Shown one piece after another: positions 55,867-63,095 of a DNA stretch of 64,000 nt. Origin of the DNA: Massilia soli (GTDB lineage Bacteria; Pseudomonadota; Gammaproteobacteria; Burkholderiales; Burkholderiaceae_D); contig NZ_JAFBIL020000005.1 of the NCBI RefSeq assembly GCF_016809835.1, forward strand, positions 1 to 64,000, read 5' to 3'. How positions within the stretch are numbered: the first letter of the stretch is position 1; the number at the start of each line of letters is the position of its first letter. The translations under genes and the position numbers were made by a program. The notes below the pieces were generated by a model, which was not told the origin of the DNA, did not search any database, and worked only from the letters and a program-made list of their open reading frames with translations.

Positions 55867-56958
55867 ATGCAAGATTTTCAGAATGCAGGGTACGGCACAG
55901 GTGGACAGTTAGCGCCACAAGGATTCTTCGGCGGCATGTTAGGGGCACCACTGGGCGGCGCAATCGGCCGCGGCATCGGCGGATTGCTCGGCAACTCCGG
56001 GCTGGGCAACCAGATCGGGCAGATCGCAGGCGGCATTGGCGGTTCGCTGCTGCCATTCGGCGCTGACCCCGTGTCGCAGGCGTACGCTCAGCAGGCACAG
56101 CAACAGCAGCTGATGCAGCAACTTCAACAACAGCAGCAACAGCAACAGCAACAACAGCAACAGCCCCAGATGGGGCAACAGTTTTCACCGCAAGGCTGGT
56201 TCGGCAATGTCCTTGGCCAGGTAGCCGCACCGCTGGGCGGCGCGATCGGCGGCCTGTTCGGCAACGCCGGCGCGGGCCAGTCAATTGGTAACGTGGCTGG
56301 CCAGCTGGGCCGCTTGCTGCCGTTTGGCGCCGATCCCATTGCAGCGGCTTATGCACAGCAGCTGCAACAGCAACAGCAACAGCAGCAGCTGCAGCCACAG
56401 GGCTGGATCGGCAACATGATCGGCCAGGTCGGGCAGCCGCTGGGCGGCGCGATCGGTGGCATGTTTGGCCAGCAAGGAATCGGCAGCAGCATCGGCAGCG
56501 CGGTGGGCCAGCTCGGCCGCCTGCTGCCATTCGGCGCGGAGGCGCAAGGCGGCGGCATGCCTCCGCATCTTCAGCAGCAACAGGTGCAGCAGCAGCTGCA
56601 ACAGCAAATCCAGCAACTGCAACAGCAATTGATCCAGCAACAGCAGCAGTTCCAGCAACAGCTGGCGCAGCTGATCGGACAACAGGGCCAGCAAGGCCAG
56701 CAAGGTCAGCAAGGTCAACTGGGTCCGCAGGGCTGGTTCGGCAATATTCTCGGCCAGGTCGGACGTCCACTGGGCGGCGCAATCGGCGGCATGTTTGGCA
56801 ATTCCAGCTTGGGCAGCACGATCGGCGGCGCAGCAGGCCAGCTTGGCCAGATGCTGCCGTTTGGCAGCGATCCGATCACGGCTGCCTATGCACAGCAAGC
56901 CCAGTTAGCCCAGCAACAGGGCTTGCCGCAGTATTCATCGCAGCAAACACTGCACTAA
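55867..56958 (+). CDS. Gln/Gly-rich protein with four glycine-zipper repeats
   Basis: This 363-residue protein has four related modules at about 17-76, 108-165, 177-225 and 287-343. Each runs PQGWFGN, a PLGGAIGG glycine zipper, then AGQLGRLLPFGADPI and AAYAQQ. Modules are linked by glutamine-rich spacers, including a run of 13 Gln (87-99) and GQQ triplets at 271-284. Gly-zipper and Gln stretches suggest membrane insertion or amyloid-like assembly, but that is inference. No signal peptide or catalytic motif is seen. No known family was recognised. The AAGGGAG site supports the start. Confidence 0.8.
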   Translation: MQDFQNAGYGTGGQLAPQGFFGGMLGAPLGGAIGRGIGGLLGNSGLGNQIGQIAGGIGGSLLPFGADPVSQAYAQQAQQQQLMQQLQQQQQQQQQQQQQPQMGQQFSPQGWFGNVLGQVAAPLGGAIGGLFGNAGAGQSIGNVAGQLGRLLPFGADPIAAAYAQQLQQQQQQQQLQPQGWIGNMIGQVGQPLGGAIGGMFGQQGIGSSIGSAVGQLGRLLPFGAEAQGGGMPPHLQQQQVQQQLQQQIQQLQQQLIQQQQQFQQQLAQLIGQQGQQGQQGQQGQLGPQGWFGNILGQVGRPLGGAIGGMFGNSSLGSTIGGAAGQLGQMLPFGSDPITAAYAQQAQLAQQQGLPQYSSQQTLH

Positions 56959-57025
56959 TCCTAGCCGCAGGCTAGTCAACCCGCTCCCGCCGGCGACGGC
57001 GGGAGCGGCCGCAAAGGAGAGCCGC

Positions 57026-57286
57026 ATGCCCGCAACGTCAACCGTGCCCGCGAGAAGCCGGTACATTATTCGCGCCAGGGGCGAGCCCCCTGCCCTTGCC
57101 GCATTTATCGACATCATACGGGGCGACCCCGACATTGCGCTGGTCGACACCATCGGGCCGCCTGGCCAGGTGCATACCGCCGTGATCGACATCGCCACCG
57201 ACAAGGCGCCGCAGTTTGAGCGCCGCTTTTTTCACTCCGATGAACTGATCGTTGAACGGGACCAGCCGCTGTCGATGTCCGACTAG
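57026..57286 (+). CDS. small protein related to the subtilase propeptide-like region (86 aa)
   Basis: This 86-residue protein resembles residues 75-167 of the following subtilase. Shared blocks are RYIIRARG against KKQFLIAPR, DPDIALVDTIG against SPDIEIIDTVG, and DELIVERDQPLSMSD against GRLVVERDQYLNLMD. The fold may be an inhibitor I9-like ferredoxin. It could act as a stand-alone chaperone or inhibitor of the protease; this is inference. A GGAG-type site precedes the ATG. It lies 67 nt after the repeat gene and 32 nt before the protease gene. Confidence 0.75.
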   Translation: MPATSTVPARSRYIIRARGEPPALAAFIDIIRGDPDIALVDTIGPPGQVHTAVIDIATDKAPQFERRFFHSDELIVERDQPLSMSD

Positions 57287-57318
57287 CGCGTCGCCGCTGC
57301 GAACCGAAAGGAAAACAC

Positions 57319-59349
57319 ATGCCAAAGAATCCTGATGGCGGCCAAGCCGGCCCGCATGACAACAACCCTGCGCCAGATGACGCGACGGCGTCGGCCAGCG
57401 ACAGGCGCGGCGCGGCCAGCGGCCGCGGCAGCGTCGACGCGCGCCGCGGCGCATCGGCGGGCAACGCCGGCGGCGCGCCGGAAGAAACGGCAGGCGCGCC
57501 GGCAGCTACGCAGGGCCGCGCCATTCACGAACGCAAAAAACAGTTTCTGATCGCACCGCGCCAGACGCAAGAGCTGGAAGCCCTAGGCCTGGCGCCGCTG
57601 TCCCTGTCCAGCGTCGAAGAGGCCTTGCACTCGAGCCCGGACATCGAGATTATCGACACCGTCGGCGCGCGCAGCAGCTTCGGCGTACTGACCGAAAGCA
57701 TGTCCGGCGGCCAGGGCATACTCGTCGCGCGCATGACCGACCAGAAAGCCGGCGCGCTGCTCCAGAACGGCCAAGGCCGGCTGGTGGTCGAGCGCGACCA
57801 GTACCTGAACCTGATGGACCCGGCATTCCGGCCGCCTGTCATGGTCAGCAACCTGTTGCCAACCACCGGACCGGCACTGTCTGCGACGGTGATCGTCGTC
57901 AGCAAGGATGGCACCCCGCTGGCCGATGCCGAGGTATCGCTGTTTGGCAGCCTGCTGCCGGCCACCAGCGTGACCGACGCCGGCGGCCAGGCCACGCTGA
58001 CGCTGTACGGCGAAACGCCCGGCTCGATCCGCGGCCTGTATGTCAAGCCGCGCGCCGATTTCTGGAGCTTTTACCAGCGCGACCCCGACATCAGTCTCGA
58101 CGAGCCCAACGTCGTCGTGCTGCGCACGCTGTCCGAGTGGCCATCGCTGACGGGCTTCCCGCATACCAAAGTGTTCGGCTGGGGCCAGAAAGCCATGCGC
58201 CTCGACCAGTTGCCGCCCAACTACCGGGGGCAAGGAATCCGGATCGCCGTCATCGATTCAGGCGTCGCCACCACGCACGAGGGCCTGGCGCAAGTCAGTG
58301 CGGGTTTTGACATCGTCAACAAAAAGACCAATCCCAACACCTGGAACGACGACACGCTCGGCCACGGCTCCCACTGCGCCGGCGTGATTGGCGCGGCCGA
58401 CCTCGCGTTCGGCATACGCGGCTTCGCACCGGATGCCGAAATCCACGCGTGCAAACTATTCCCCGGCGGGCAGGTCAGCCAGTTGATCGACGCACTTGAA
58501 TACTGCATCGAACACCAGATCGACGTGGTCAACCTCAGCCTGGGCGGGGCTGAACCATCGGAAGCGCTGGAGCAGCAGATCCTGCGGGCAAAACGGGCCG
58601 GCATCGCCTGCATTGTCGCCGCTGGCAACTCGGGCGGAGCGGTCCAATACCCCGCTTCGTCGCCTAACGTGCTGGCTGTTGCAGCCATCGGCAAGCTGGA
58701 CGAATTTCCGCCAGACAGCTACCACGCCGAGACGCTGACGCAGAGTGTCGATGCCAACGGCTACTTCCCGGCCAAGTTCAGCTGCTTCGGGCCGCAAGTG
58801 GCGGTCTGCGGTCCAGGGGTGGCGATCGCCTCGAGCGTGCCGCCGAATAACTACGCCGTCTGGGATGGCACGTCGATGGCCGCGCCGCATATTGCCGGCC
58901 TGGCGGCACTGGTGCTGGCACACCATCCAAACTTCCAGGGCGCATGGCGCACGCGTAGCGCCGAACGGGTCGAACGCTTGTTCGAGATGATCAAATTGAG
59001 TGCGCGGCGCGTCAGCCTCGGGAATCAATACCAAACCGGCTTTGGCTTGCCTGACGCATTGGTGGCCGTCGGGCTGCAGCCGCATCCGGCCCGGGCGCAG
59101 GTTCAGCCCGGACAGCTTGGCGGATTGATGGCGTCAATGTTGCCGCAGCAGGCAGCCGGGGCGGCGATCGGCGGCATTGCCGGCAGCGTCGGTGGACGCG
59201 GCGGCCACCTTGAACTGTTCGGCATGGATCCGGCGCTGGCGGCGTACGCCAGCCTGGGCACAGGTAATTATCAACAACTGCACCCATTCAACCAGTTTGG
59301 CGCGATGCCGTTTGGCCCAGGGGCACCGGGATATCGCAGCGGCTGGTAG
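57319..59349 (+). CDS. subtilisin-like serine protease with C-terminal repeat module
   Basis: This 676-residue S8 protease has a low-complexity Gly/Ala/Asp head (1-70), a propeptide-like region (75-167) and an Ig-like or carboxypeptidase-regulatory-like segment (about 185-270). The catalytic domain (about 300-585) has D313 (VIDSG), H349 (GHGSH), N437 (AAGNSGG) and S519 (DGTSMAAPH). Its C-terminus (about 595-648) has AAGAAIGGIAGSVGG and FGMDPALAAYA, like the repeat modules of the upstream protein. No classical signal peptide is visible, so the route of export, if any, is unclear. Confidence 0.93.
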   Translation: MPKNPDGGQAGPHDNNPAPDDATASASDRRGAASGRGSVDARRGASAGNAGGAPEETAGAPAATQGRAIHERKKQFLIAPRQTQELEALGLAPLSLSSVEEALHSSPDIEIIDTVGARSSFGVLTESMSGGQGILVARMTDQKAGALLQNGQGRLVVERDQYLNLMDPAFRPPVMVSNLLPTTGPALSATVIVVSKDGTPLADAEVSLFGSLLPATSVTDAGGQATLTLYGETPGSIRGLYVKPRADFWSFYQRDPDISLDEPNVVVLRTLSEWPSLTGFPHTKVFGWGQKAMRLDQLPPNYRGQGIRIAVIDSGVATTHEGLAQVSAGFDIVNKKTNPNTWNDDTLGHGSHCAGVIGAADLAFGIRGFAPDAEIHACKLFPGGQVSQLIDALEYCIEHQIDVVNLSLGGAEPSEALEQQILRAKRAGIACIVAAGNSGGAVQYPASSPNVLAVAAIGKLDEFPPDSYHAETLTQSVDANGYFPAKFSCFGPQVAVCGPGVAIASSVPPNNYAVWDGTSMAAPHIAGLAALVLAHHPNFQGAWRTRSAERVERLFEMIKLSARRVSLGNQYQTGFGLPDALVAVGLQPHPARAQVQPGQLGGLMASMLPQQAAGAAIGGIAGSVGGRGGHLELFGMDPALAAYASLGTGNYQQLHPFNQFGAMPFGPGAPGYRSGW

Positions 59350-59401: not shown

Positions 59402-59477
59402 TGGCGTCCCCAGGGGGATTCGAACCCCCGTACTCACCGTGAAAGGGTGATGTCCTAGGCCTCTAGACGATGGGGAC
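59402..59477 (-). tRNA. tRNA-Glu (TTC), copy 1
   Basis: The 76-nt tRNA has acceptor stem GTCCCCA/TGGGGAC, anticodon TTC and encoded CCA. It is identical to copies 2 and 3. Confidence 0.97.
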
Positions 59478-59511
59478 CTTGAACGGTGCTGCGATACTGC
59501 TTCACAAATTC

Positions 59512-59531
59512 AAAAGCCGCCCAAGGCGGCT
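59512..59531 (-). terminator. terminator-like hairpin between tRNA-Glu copies 1 and 2
   Basis: On the minus strand AGCCGCC-TTG-GGCGGCT is followed by TTTGAATTT. A weak T tract makes it less certain. Confidence 0.5.
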
Positions 59532-59543
59532 CTTGAAAACAAC

Positions 59544-59619
59544 TGGCGTCCCCAGGGGGATTCGAACCCCCGTACTCACCGTGAAAGGGTGATGTCCTAG
59601 GCCTCTAGACGATGGGGAC
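59544..59619 (-). tRNA. tRNA-Glu (TTC), copy 2
   Basis: It is identical in sequence to copy 1, with anticodon TTC and encoded CCA. Confidence 0.97.
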
Positions 59620-59674
59620 AGAAATCTGTCCGTGGATGATTTTATCATCCTGACCCGCCTGGCACCGCACCAAT

Positions 59675-59696
59675 AAAAAACCCTGACGAGTCAGGG
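59675..59696 (-). terminator. rho-independent terminator between tRNA-Glu copies 2 and 3
   Basis: On the minus strand CCCTGA...TCAGGG is a 6-bp stem followed by TTTTTTA. Confidence 0.75.
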
Positions 59697-59739
59697 CGTT
59701 TAGCGGTACCAAACTCACACTGCTTTACTACTCGAATCC

Positions 59740-59815
59740 TGGCGTCCCCAGGGGGATTCGAACCCCCGTACTCACCGTGAAAGGGTGATGTCCTAGGCCT
59801 CTAGACGATGGGGAC
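59740..59815 (-). tRNA. tRNA-Glu (TTC), copy 3
   Basis: It is identical to copies 1 and 2 and lies just downstream of tRNA-Ala on the minus strand. Confidence 0.97.
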
Positions 59816-59850
59816 CTTGAACTGCACTAACTATATTACTCTCTTCAACG

Positions 59851-59926
<76 letters not shown>

Positions 59927-59992: not shown

Positions 59993-61387
59993 TCAAAGAT
60001 ATTTGTTCACGCGCGCCAGCACCGCATCGCGGCCGATGATCTGCAGCACCGCGTCGATGGCAGGCGTCTGCAACTGGCCGGTGATGATCAGGCGCAGCGG
60101 CATGGCGATCTGCGGCATCTTCAGTCCATTGGCTGCCAGCACTTCCTTGATCATCGCGGCGATCGCTTCCTTGGTCCACTCCACCGTCGACACACGTTCA
60201 GCGAACTGGGCCAGCGCAGGCTTGACCGCATCGGTCAGGTGCTGCGTCATCAATGCCGGGTCCGGTTGCGGATCGCGGAAGAACAGCATGGCCGCATCGG
60301 CCAGCTCATTGATGGTGTTGGCACGCTCTTTCATCAGGGCGAGCACGGCTGGCAGCGCGGGACCGCCGGCGAAGTTCGCGCCCTGGGCTTCCATCATCGG
60401 ACGCGCCAGGCCTGCCAGGCGTTCATTATCGGCCTGCTTAATATAGTGGTTGTTCAGCCACGCCAGCTTCTCATTATTGAACTGCGCCGCGGAACGGGTC
60501 AGGTGGTCGAGGTTGAACCACTCGCAGAACTGCGTCATCGAGAACACTTCGTCGTCGCCATGGCTCCAGCCCAGGCGCGCCAGGTAGTTCAGCATTGCTT
60601 CCGGCAAGTAGCCCTTCTCTGGATAATCCATCACGCTGACCGCGCCGTGACGCTTGGACAGCTTTTCGCCGTCAGCGCCGAGGATCATCGGCAGGTGGCC
60701 GTACAGCGGCAGCGGCGCACCGATCGCGCGCAGGATATTAATCTGGCGTGGCGTGTTGTTGACGTGATCGTCGCCGCGCAGCACGTGGGTGATCTGCATG
60801 TCCCAGTCATCCACCGCGACGCAGAAGTTATAGGTTGGCGTGCCGTCCGGGCGCGCGATGACCAGGTCGTCGAGCTCCTTGTTGCCGATCGTGATGGTGC
60901 CCTTGACGACGTCGTCCCAGCTGACTTCGCCATCGAGCGGGTTCTTGAAACGCACCACCGGCTTGCGCTCGGCAGGTACCGGCGGCAAGGTCTTGCCCTC
61001 TTCCGGACGCCAGGTGCCATCGTAGCGCGGCTTCTCGCCCGCGGCGCGCATGCGCTCGCGCATCGCCTCGACTTCGTCCGGCGAGGAATAGCACAGGTAA
61101 GCGGTGCCCGCGTCGAGCATCTGCGCCACCACTTCGCGGTAGCGGTCCATGCGCTGCATCTGATAGAACGGGCCTTCGTCGTGATCGAGGCCCAGCCACT
61201 TCATGCCCTCAAGAATCGCCTGCACCGCCTCGGGCGTCGAACGCTCCAGGTCGGTGTCCTCGATGCGCAAAATAAACGTACCACCGAAGTGGCGCGCGAA
61301 CGCCCACGAATACAGCGCGGTGCGGGCGCCGCCGAGGTGGAGGTAGCCGGTGGGGCTTGGAGCAAAACGGGTGCGGACGACGGTCAT
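59993..61387 (-). CDS. gltX: glutamyl-tRNA synthetase
   Basis: GltX charges tRNA-Glu. The 464-residue class I synthetase has [11 protein letters not shown] (HIGH region), an [10 protein letters not shown] segment and KLSKRHGA (KMSKS motif). The ATG at 61387 gives [14 protein letters not shown]; a longer upstream frame is unlikely. It is followed on the same strand by tRNA-Ala and three tRNA-Glu genes, its own substrate. Confidence 0.97.
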
Positions 61388-61580
61388 GGCGATCAATGTG
61401 CTGGATATAAAGACGGCTATTTTACAGCGTCGCGCTCCCGGCGCACCAGACGCCGCCCGTGCTGCCAATGCCAGGCGCAAGATCGTTCTATTGCTCAGTT
61501 CGCTATTGTGTGCGCGGTCAATATCTGCCGGCGCGCGCTGCGGATACTCGGTATCAGGTCATTACAGACACGAGGCAATC

Positions 61581-63095
61581 ATGGATCGGCGAGCTTTTAT
61601 CAAGATAGGTACCGGCGCCGCTGTTGGCGGCATGTTAAGCGCCTGTGGCGGCGGCAACGGCTCAATGCCCCAGCCAGCACCCGCACCCGCGCCCGCGCCC
61701 GATTCGTTGCGCAAGCGAACTGTGGTCGGATGGAACGACACCGCGCTGCAGGCAATACGCGCACAGCGGCCGAGCGCGCCGATGGCGGCGCGCTCGCTGG
61801 CAATTGCGCATACGGCGATGTACGACGCCTGGGCCGCTTACGACCCAAGCGCGCTGGGCACGCGCTACCGCGCCGCTTTGCGCCGCCAGGCAGGCGAACA
61901 CACCGCGCAACATAAATCCGTGGCGATCAGCTTCGCGGCGTACGCGGCGCTGGTCGACCAGTTCCCCGCGCAGAAGGCCATGTTCGATGCGCGCATGGCG
62001 GCGCTGGGCCTGGATCTAGCGCGCGCCACGCGTGATGCGGCAAGGCCGGAGGGCATCGGCACGATTGCCGCCGCCGGTGTTGTTGCCGACTGCCACCACG
62101 ACGGCGCCAACCAGCTCGGCGACCTGTCGCCAAGCCGGGTGCCCTATGCGGACTATACCGGCTACTCGCCGCGCAACCCGGCGATGCTGGTGATGGCATC
62201 GACACCGCGCTCGGCAATCCTGGACCCTGGCCGCTGGCAGCCGCTCACCTACCGCAATGCCAGCGGGGCCCTCGTCACGCCCGGGTTCGCGGCTGCCTGC
62301 TGGCCCCGCGTTGCGCCGTTTGCGCTGCGCACGGCGAACCAGTTCCGGCCTGGCGCGCCTGCTGCCTTCGGCAGCCCAGAATACGCAGAGCAGGCGCGCC
62401 ACCTGCTCGACGTGCAGCAAGCGCTGACCGAAAAGCAAAAGGTGGTCACCGAATACTGGGCCGGCGGCGCGACCGGCGAATTACCCGCCTGCTACTGGTG
62501 CCAGTTCGCCCAGTTTATCTCCGAGCGCGACGGATACGGCGACGACCAGGATGTAAAACTCTTCTTTGCGCTGGCCAACGCCAACTTCGATGCGGGCATT
62601 GCGGCGTGGGATGCCAAGGTCTTTTACGACTCGGCACGGCCGATCACGGCACTGCGCTACCTGATGAGCGGCAAGCAGATCATCGGTTACGGGCCCGAAG
62701 GTCCGCCGGGCGGATTGCAGCCCATCGACGGCTCGGCGTGGATGCCGTACCAGGCCGCGACCCTGCCGACGCCGCCGTTTGCCGACCATGTGTCGGGCCA
62801 CAGCACCTTCAGTGCGGCGTCGGCCGAAGTGCTCAGCTTGTTTACCGGCAGTGACAAGTTCGGGCACGCGGTCAAGGTTGCTGCGGGCGCGATGCTGTAC
62901 GAGCCGGGCCTGCCGTCCGAGGATGTCACGCTGCAGTGGGCGACGTTCAGCGACGCGGCCGCCGAAGCCGGGATCTCGCGGCTTTATGGCGGGATTCATT
63001 TCGCCAATGCCGATACCGCTGGTCAGGCCCTGGGACGCAAAGTTGGCGCGGAAGTGTTCGAACGCGCGCGTCGCCATTGGACCGGATCGGCCTGA
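61581..63095 (+). CDS. Tat-lipoprotein vanadium haloperoxidase/PAP2-like enzyme
   Basis: This 504-residue protein begins with RRAFIK and a lipobox LSAC (C22), so it should be exported by Tat and lipidated. After a Pro/Ala linker the domain resembles vanadium-dependent haloperoxidases and PAP2 enzymes: SGHSTFSAASAEVL and GGIHF are the vanadate- or phosphate-binding motifs. The substrate, whether halide peroxide or phosphate ester, is not decided by sequence. GAGG lies about 5 nt before the ATG. Confidence 0.87.
   Translation: MDRRAFIKIGTGAAVGGMLSACGGGNGSMPQPAPAPAPAPDSLRKRTVVGWNDTALQAIRAQRPSAPMAARSLAIAHTAMYDAWAAYDPSALGTRYRAALRRQAGEHTAQHKSVAISFAAYAALVDQFPAQKAMFDARMAALGLDLARATRDAARPEGIGTIAAAGVVADCHHDGANQLGDLSPSRVPYADYTGYSPRNPAMLVMASTPRSAILDPGRWQPLTYRNASGALVTPGFAAACWPRVAPFALRTANQFRPGAPAAFGSPEYAEQARHLLDVQQALTEKQKVVTEYWAGGATGELPACYWCQFAQFISERDGYGDDQDVKLFFALANANFDAGIAAWDAKVFYDSARPITALRYLMSGKQIIGYGPEGPPGGLQPIDGSAWMPYQAATLPTPPFADHVSGHSTFSAASAEVLSLFTGSDKFGHAVKVAAGAMLYEPGLPSEDVTLQWATFSDAAAEAGISRLYGGIHFANADTAGQALGRKVGAEVFERARRHWTGSA

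Follow-up and report, generated by a model that had tools for sequence, protein, structure and literature searches.

A three-gene operon of Massilia soli encodes a glycine-zipper repeat protein, a free relative of a subtilase N-domain, and an S8 subtilase

We analysed a 64,000-nucleotide stretch of Massilia soli DNA (contig NZ_JAFBIL020000005.1, positions 1 to 64,000; hereafter the window), in which an earlier sequence-only reading had proposed three linked genes for a Gln/Gly repeat protein, a small propeptide-like protein and a subtilase. The genes lie where that reading had placed them, in tandem on the + strand and in that order: a repeat-protein gene (55867..56958; 363 amino acids, aa), a small-protein gene (57026..57286; 86 aa) whose product is a stand-alone relative of the subtilase N-domain, and an S8 subtilase gene (57319..59349; 676 aa). 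Intergenic gaps are 67 nt and 32 nt, and a purine-rich stretch stands 5’ of each start (AGGGAG, AGGAG and AAGG, respectively). No signal peptide was visible in any of the three proteins by eye, the only means used, as no predictor was run. With the window as reference, Nei-Gojobori ratios of nonsynonymous to synonymous change (dN/dS) against loci L030 and L031 were ~0.09 and ~0.15 for the repeat protein, 0.23 and 0.23 for the small protein, and 0.13 and 0.14 for the subtilase, showing that all three genes are under purifying selection.

The repeat protein is rich in Gln (27%) and Gly (21%) and nearly uncharged (charged residues about 3%). It is built of four ~52-aa glycine-zipper modules with Gln-rich linkers between them, and its C-terminus reads QQTLH. 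The four copies that the earlier reading had counted were recovered on the + strand at 55909..56070 (E 1.3e-17 to module profile A3), 56182..56337 (E 4.6e-25), 56389..56541 (E 3.5e-23) and 56719..56874 (E 2.4e-25), the module profile itself including these four. The module consensus, LAPQGWFGNLIGQVGQPLGGAIGGLFGNAGLGSTIGGIAGQLGRMLPFGADP, has two GxxxGxxxG runs followed by LPF and DP. Conservation of these end motifs is established across the 223 modules that a hidden Markov model (HMM) found at 62 loci (L.91, P.99, F.90, D.92, P.94), although the HMM was seeded with a pattern demanding PQ and PF, and those residues are somewhat favoured in these figures. The zipper glycines are conserved at.92-.97 in the same modules, whose number per locus ranges from 1 to 7. 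The last residue is His in 60 of 62 repeat proteins, mostly within QTLH, PTIH or QTVH; the exceptions are L019 and the frameshifted L034, and L050, from which no repeat protein was obtained, stands outside the count.

The subtilase matches PF00082 at 143.4 bits (cut-off 21.8). Its S8 catalytic domain spans residues 304-542 (58228..58944), and Asp313 (58255-58257), His349 (58363-58365) and Ser519 (58873-58875), assigned as the triad from known S8 motifs, are invariant in 12 of 12 aligned relatives; the catalytic triad is intact. Read by eye, the N-terminus begins with a stretch that looks disordered and continues into a folded domain. A propeptide-like N-domain (residues 68-170; 57520..57828) precedes an immunoglobulin (Ig)-like beta domain (residues 186-268; 57874..58122), which lies between the N- and catalytic domains and gave weak Big_1 and CarboxypepD_reg matches below curated cut-offs. 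The model of the whole subtilase had a mean predicted local distance difference test score (pLDDT) of 46.9, so the placement of the N-domain was not read from it.

Profile comparison establishes that the 86-aa protein is homologous to the subtilase N-domain, the resemblance that the sequence-only reading had proposed. A single pair of sequences gave a BLASTP E of 2e-4; the small-protein profile matched the N-domain profile with 98.3% probability (E 1.6e-14), well above chance, as controls from the Ig-like region and two parts of the catalytic domain gave at most 0.6% and the reversed N-domain 1.0%. The small protein has a conserved tail, E-[RP]-D-[RQ]-P-L-S, ending PLSLF in most relatives and PLSMS in the window. 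Its structural model (pLDDT 76.7; predicted template modelling score 0.63) is a strand-helix-strand-strand-helix-strand fold, and the order of strands and helices is alike in the N-domain of the otherwise poor subtilase model. Structure comparison placed procarboxypeptidase prodomains top by Z, nearly equalled by generic ferredoxin-like folds; the structure matches listed included no subtilisin propeptide, which we do not take to mean that none would match. At the sequence level, the small protein matched no Pfam family at E <= 1, no NCBIfam model, and no solved structure at E <= 10, and I9 was absent from the four weak Pfam families matched by 14 of its relatives (E <= 10).

The subtilase tail carries a degenerate glycine-zipper stretch detected by the module HMM (residues 599-626; 59113..59196), with the LFGMDPALAAYA stretch after it. 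The window tail scored 15.1 bits, a value reached by none of 200 shuffles (best 7.6); the L030 tail scored 11.3 bits, again with 0/200 shuffles as high, and the strongest likeness was in L081 (18.9 bits). Over all 62 tails, 200 rounds of shuffling gave a best score anywhere of 13.4 bits, and 25 of the 62 tails exceeded the 95% point of their own shuffles. The tail of a close relative, L031, scored -0.3 bits (reached by 97/200 shuffles), and nonetheless retains an LFGMDPAMAAYA stretch. A DP closely followed by AAY-like residues occurs in 17/62 tails (shuffle mean 0.6, maximum 4) and [LM]PF in 15/62 (shuffle mean 3.0, maximum 9). By these sequence scores, the module in the subtilase tail is real in the window and L030, varies between lineages, and is undetectable in L031 and many others: the degenerate copy that had been noted at the C-terminus stands for the window but is weaker and more lineage-bound than described. 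Although the tails are 35-135 aa long and differ strongly in sequence, the last residue is Trp in 58 of 62 (Trp676 in the window; 59344..59346); the others are L033 (WY), L041 (WQ), the frameshifted L034, and L081, while L035 gave no tail and is outside this count. Fixed terminal residues on otherwise loose tails suggest that the His of the repeat protein and the Trp of the subtilase may be recognition signals.

We scanned named genomes with an alignment of the small protein, which yielded 57 loci; by title these belong to Massilia, Duganella, Rugamonas, Noviherbaspirillum, Herbaspirillum, Herminiimonas, Lacisediminimonas, and unassigned or Burkholderiaceae-type bins. Gene linkage and order are established across them: subtilase sequence lies directly downstream of the small protein in 57/57 loci (frame broken in L034, L035 and L041), and the repeat protein lies upstream in 56/57, the remaining locus, L050, being at a contig edge. 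Because this set was selected by the small protein, we searched 294 family genomes separately with each profile. Matches were found in 70 genomes for the small protein, 66 for the repeat modules and 73 for the subtilase (E <= 1e-50). Four of the 73 were set aside as paralogue-grade, namely G004, G009 and G193, which matched at E 1e-51 to 1e-69, and G034, whose two copies gave 1e-153 and 1e-123; 69 orthologue-grade subtilase genomes remained. All 69 gave a small-profile match, five of them solely through the subtilase’s own N-domain, and 65 had repeat modules, which establishes the co-occurrence expected of the linked, co-inherited system that had been proposed. Wide occurrence apart from the protease was absent: repeat modules with neither subtilase nor small protein found were seen once among the 294 genomes, in G144, at a contig edge.

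The three genes occur together in nearly all of these genomes, but not in every one. Among the 69 subtilase genomes, 64 have the small protein (in two of them fused to the subtilase), three lack it, and two (G214 and G224) have contig breaks at its position. The three without it, G102, G282 and G323, belong to one genus and have no free small gene between the repeat and subtilase genes. Their repeat proteins, shortened to 145-219 aa (the first two judged at least partly from contig ends), end in QQTLH, and their subtilase N-domains match the small-protein profile at E 2e-8 to 1e-7. The same three genomes, together with G139 (contig edge), make up the four without repeat-module matches. In-frame fusions of small protein to subtilase occur in Noviherbaspirillum malthae (L052) and N. 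aerium (L059), and retain both the PLSLF end and the protease’s usual MPKT start; spacing was -8 to 45 nt in 53/53 other measurable loci, taking the nearest ATG or GTG. The gene count is thus not rigid, as two-gene and fused forms exist. The 70th small-profile genome, G008, has a decayed locus (L018 6684-7500), in which residues 1-70 of the small gene lead into the last part of the subtilase, left as a remnant in another frame; the repeat protein was not found there.

In the window, the operon lies between earP/efp and, at its other end, a group of tRNA-Glu/tRNA-Ala genes with a gltX-like gene; the earP, efp and gltX assignments come from reading the protein sequences. EarP is a neighbour in 42 of the 58 loci with both alignments, and the rest fall into a few genus-typical neighbourhoods. 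At those 42 loci, distances of the small protein (r 0.80) and the subtilase (r 0.84) track EarP distances. The partial correlation between small-protein and subtilase distances given EarP was 0.48, with 0/2000 permutations as high, but it is weak evidence for co-evolution because neighbouring genes share history. Within the window’s genus, 7 of 17 named genomes lack the small protein, all of 7.4-7.8 Mb. The chromosomal position of the operon is stable within lineages, and beyond the three genes no neighbour is common to all loci; the neighbours are lineage-specific chromosomal genes such as EarP. This distribution looks like vertical descent with losses. In samples of the wider groups, repeat modules were found in 1 of 274 genomes of the class (the window’s own), with three weak partial matches (E 5e-4 to 2e-3), and 4 of 250 genomes of the order had the subtilase (E <= 1e-40), the copy in G068 being a distant paralogue.

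A mobile element or prophage as the usual carrier was rejected on searches of plasmids and viral contigs with the small protein. It had no match in 72,556 plasmid records, and 12 pattern matches in viral contigs yielded no confirmed relative, the phage-record collection being outside this search. Plasmid relatives of the subtilase were distant: 20 records, all below 60% identity, none with a single place covering 80% of the query.

Among these divergent relatives, the partner types occur apart. Streptomyces plasmid subtilases are 37% identical to the query over 76-77% of its length. At all three loci (L144, L145 and L152, in two records) a Gln-rich protein of 183-195 aa (Q 29-38%) lies directly upstream; their N-domains match the N-domain profile (E 2e-9 to 1e-11), and no small-protein gene was recognised at the three loci. 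Counting these with the two subtilases of G034 (L117 and L118) and, partly, that of G009 (L129), the N-domain was detected at E 8e-6 to 2e-14, and the Streptomyces and G034 proteins, and the G009 protein in part, share the window’s N-domain/Ig/S8 layout. One of the divergent G034 subtilases follows a 454-aa Gln-rich repeat protein with other modules (APQGFDFGSI...DPQ), also ending TVH. The converse arrangement occurs in Rhizobium (L146), G068 (L147) and G193 (L148), where a protein of 78-83 aa lies downstream of the subtilase. A profile of these small proteins, from three sequences, matched that of the window at 87% (E 4e-6), with reversed controls at 0.5% or less and other regions at no more than 0.6%; no match of their subtilase N-domains to the N-domain profile was obtained, and no Gln-rich protein was recognised at L146-L148. 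The window’s system thus combines two partner types, the Streptomyces-type Gln-rich partner and the Rhizobium-type small partner, that are separate elsewhere.

Further neighbourhoods of these relatives were recorded. In G004, G009 and G275, a short subtilase adjoins a thioesterase gene and follows a protein of tandem repeats, Gln-rich (Q 14-22%) though with more charge; G009 also has a non-ribosomal peptide synthetase (NRPS) gene (names from reading). At L129 (6010-12470), L130 and L149, a subtilase of 505-507 aa stands between a tandem-repeat protein (TDEAAAAGMDLPTYLAVLQNHEQHQ) and a thioesterase-like gene, with an NRPS-like gene next in L129. The Rhizobium plasmid locus (L146 4641-6390) encodes a DUF3883 protein, the subtilase, a small protein of 81-83 aa ending GW, and a tyrosinase-family gene. 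In G068 (L147 363-779 and neighbours), the small open reading frames that precede the subtilase gene resemble a toxin-antitoxin pair (DUF433-like and PIN-like by eye).

Upstream of the operon, AAACTTC, considered as a common promoter motif, occurs in 26/47 regions (shuffle maximum 15), but many of them also serve the divergent earP gene; across the whole region a single sigma-70-type site was found, on the opposite strand and at chance level. Just 3’ of the window operon, at 59402-59926, three tRNA-Glu genes and one tRNA-Ala gene stand in series on the minus strand, with flanking sequence repeated. A large + strand open reading frame at 61350-63095, perhaps for a vanadium-dependent haloperoxidase or a PAP2 relative, has a twin-arginine-like start (MDRRAFIK) in its interior as well as a PSGH-like motif.

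S8 proteases, propeptide-like inhibitors and glycine zippers are already known; the three-gene layout is without a found description, none being present in the open-access literature among the matches listed, in line with the earlier reading, which had recognised no described system. Fungal POIA1 and Pbi2 are stand-alone inhibitors of the I9, subtilisin propeptide-like type. The small protein resembles them in being free, in matching a subtilase propeptide in size and probably in fold, and in ending just past the last strand; it differs in having no Pfam I9 match and in sharing an operon with its presumed target protease, which retains its own copy of the domain. Assignment to the I9/subtilisin propeptide sequence family was rejected for want of a profile match. 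In intracellular subtilisins (ISPs), also of family S8, an N-terminal propeptide restrains the protease through a LIPY/F motif in the active site, as described in PMC6220982. The window subtilase likewise has no visible signal peptide, and its system has a hydrophobic-Pro-aromatic motif; unlike an ISP with its short propeptide, it has a folded N-domain and an Ig-like domain, together with a free second copy of the domain and a dedicated LPF-bearing repeat protein. Reading of the 12 aligned relatives found no LIPY/F near the subtilase start, and ISP class membership, which calls for a short LIPY/F propeptide, was rejected. Identity with the IetAS/IteS anti-phage subtilase was rejected too, there being no full-length match.

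Subtilisins prefer Phe after Pro, and their standard assay peptide is AAPF. From this preference, the LPF conserved at the end of each module, and ISP inhibition by LIPY/F, we regard it as most likely that the protease binds or cuts at the module ends and that the small protein serves as a propeptide in trans. We tentatively favour, at somewhat less than even confidence, a cell-internal subtilase with a propeptide-like regulator acting in trans and a modular substrate bound or cut at LPF. The subtilase would be made with its propeptide-like N-domain and Ig-like domain ahead of the catalytic domain. The small protein would be a second, free propeptide-like copy, serving in trans as a folding helper, a reversible inhibitor, or both, and its conserved end (PLSLF/PLSMS) would sit in the active site as the end of a subtilisin propeptide does. 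The repeat protein would be the dedicated partner, near-uncharged and Gln-rich, with one to seven glycine-zipper helical hairpins each ending LPF-x-x-DP. LPF would make a good subtilisin-type site, with Pro at P2 and Phe at P1. Once active, the protease would bind or cut there, freeing or remodelling membrane-active or self-associating hairpins, and its module-like tail may aid docking. In favour of this reading are the homology of small protein and N-domain and their like order of strands and helices, the two natural fusions, the conserved gene order and close spacing, the invariant triad, the conserved LPF, the [LM]PF of some subtilase tails, the LIPY/F inhibition of ISPs, and the small-protein-like N-domains kept in the genomes that have no free small protein. 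What we infer from the sequences is that inhibition takes place in trans, that cutting falls at LPF, and what becomes of the hairpins.

The strongest rival, which we consider rather unlikely, is a scaffold: the uncut repeat protein would self-assemble into a body or condensate by way of its zippers and its Gln-rich linkers, with the subtilase as a tail-anchored client silenced by the small protein. The low-complexity, near-uncharged repeat protein, the repeat-like subtilase tail with its conserved last residue, and the range of one to seven repeats per locus all fit such an assembly, whereas the tail likeness varies by lineage, and a scaffold would not need motifs as specific as the LPF and DP with which every module closes. 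Between a substrate and a scaffold role for the repeat protein, sequence cannot decide.

We thought it improbable that the operon encodes an interbacterial weapon, in which the subtilase would release glycine-zipper peptides from a polyprotein to strike competitor membranes, somewhat in the manner of the Caulobacter Cdz bacteriocins. The likeness lies in extended zippers of the GxxxGxxxG type, with much Gly and many small hydrophobic residues, as in CdzC and CdzD; these are proteins of 84-86 aa with type I export and a paired immunity protein, according to PMC5380434. In the window, by contrast, the zippers are repeated in one 363-aa Gln-rich protein of four modules beside a subtilase. No leader is visible, and no exporter or membrane immunity gene was recognised in the window flanks, whose genes are only partly identified. 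The absence of any further neighbour conserved at all loci, with lineage-specific chromosomal genes in its place, also argues against a weapon, as does a chromosomal position stable within lineages, unlike that of horizontally moved weapons.

Least probable of all is a self-killing or defence switch, in which an upstream signal would activate the subtilase to free membrane-damaging hairpins within the cell: the pairing of a protease with a hydrophobic partner and the matches to two PADLOC models, subtilase (E 2.3e-24) and IetS (E 8.8e-8), agree with it, but those matches are confined to the catalytic domain, the NCBIfam IteS match reaches 20.3 bits against a cut-off of 900, the distribution is vertical with distances tracking EarP, and no relative of the small protein was confirmed in viral contigs or plasmids.

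A more specific form of the favoured trans-regulated protease is in our view unlikely in its entirety: an intracellular proteolytic switch of a class so far undescribed, made of a protease, a free copy of its regulatory domain, and a modular zipper polyprotein with dedicated LPF docking or cleavage points, in which the last His of the repeat protein and the last Trp of the protease would be recognition tags. On this view, parts of the kit come back beside different Gln-rich partners in actinobacteria and in further proteobacteria. If the trans-regulated reading is true, the operon would offer a clean bacterial model of trans-regulated proteolysis, with a regulatory domain held as a free gene beside a repetitive target, and a model for the control of glycine-zipper, Gln-rich proteins inside cells. 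The system is small and is kept vertically in soil and water bacteria that can be cultured and are amenable to genetics, and its predictions for the LPF sites and the C-terminal His and Trp are sharp.

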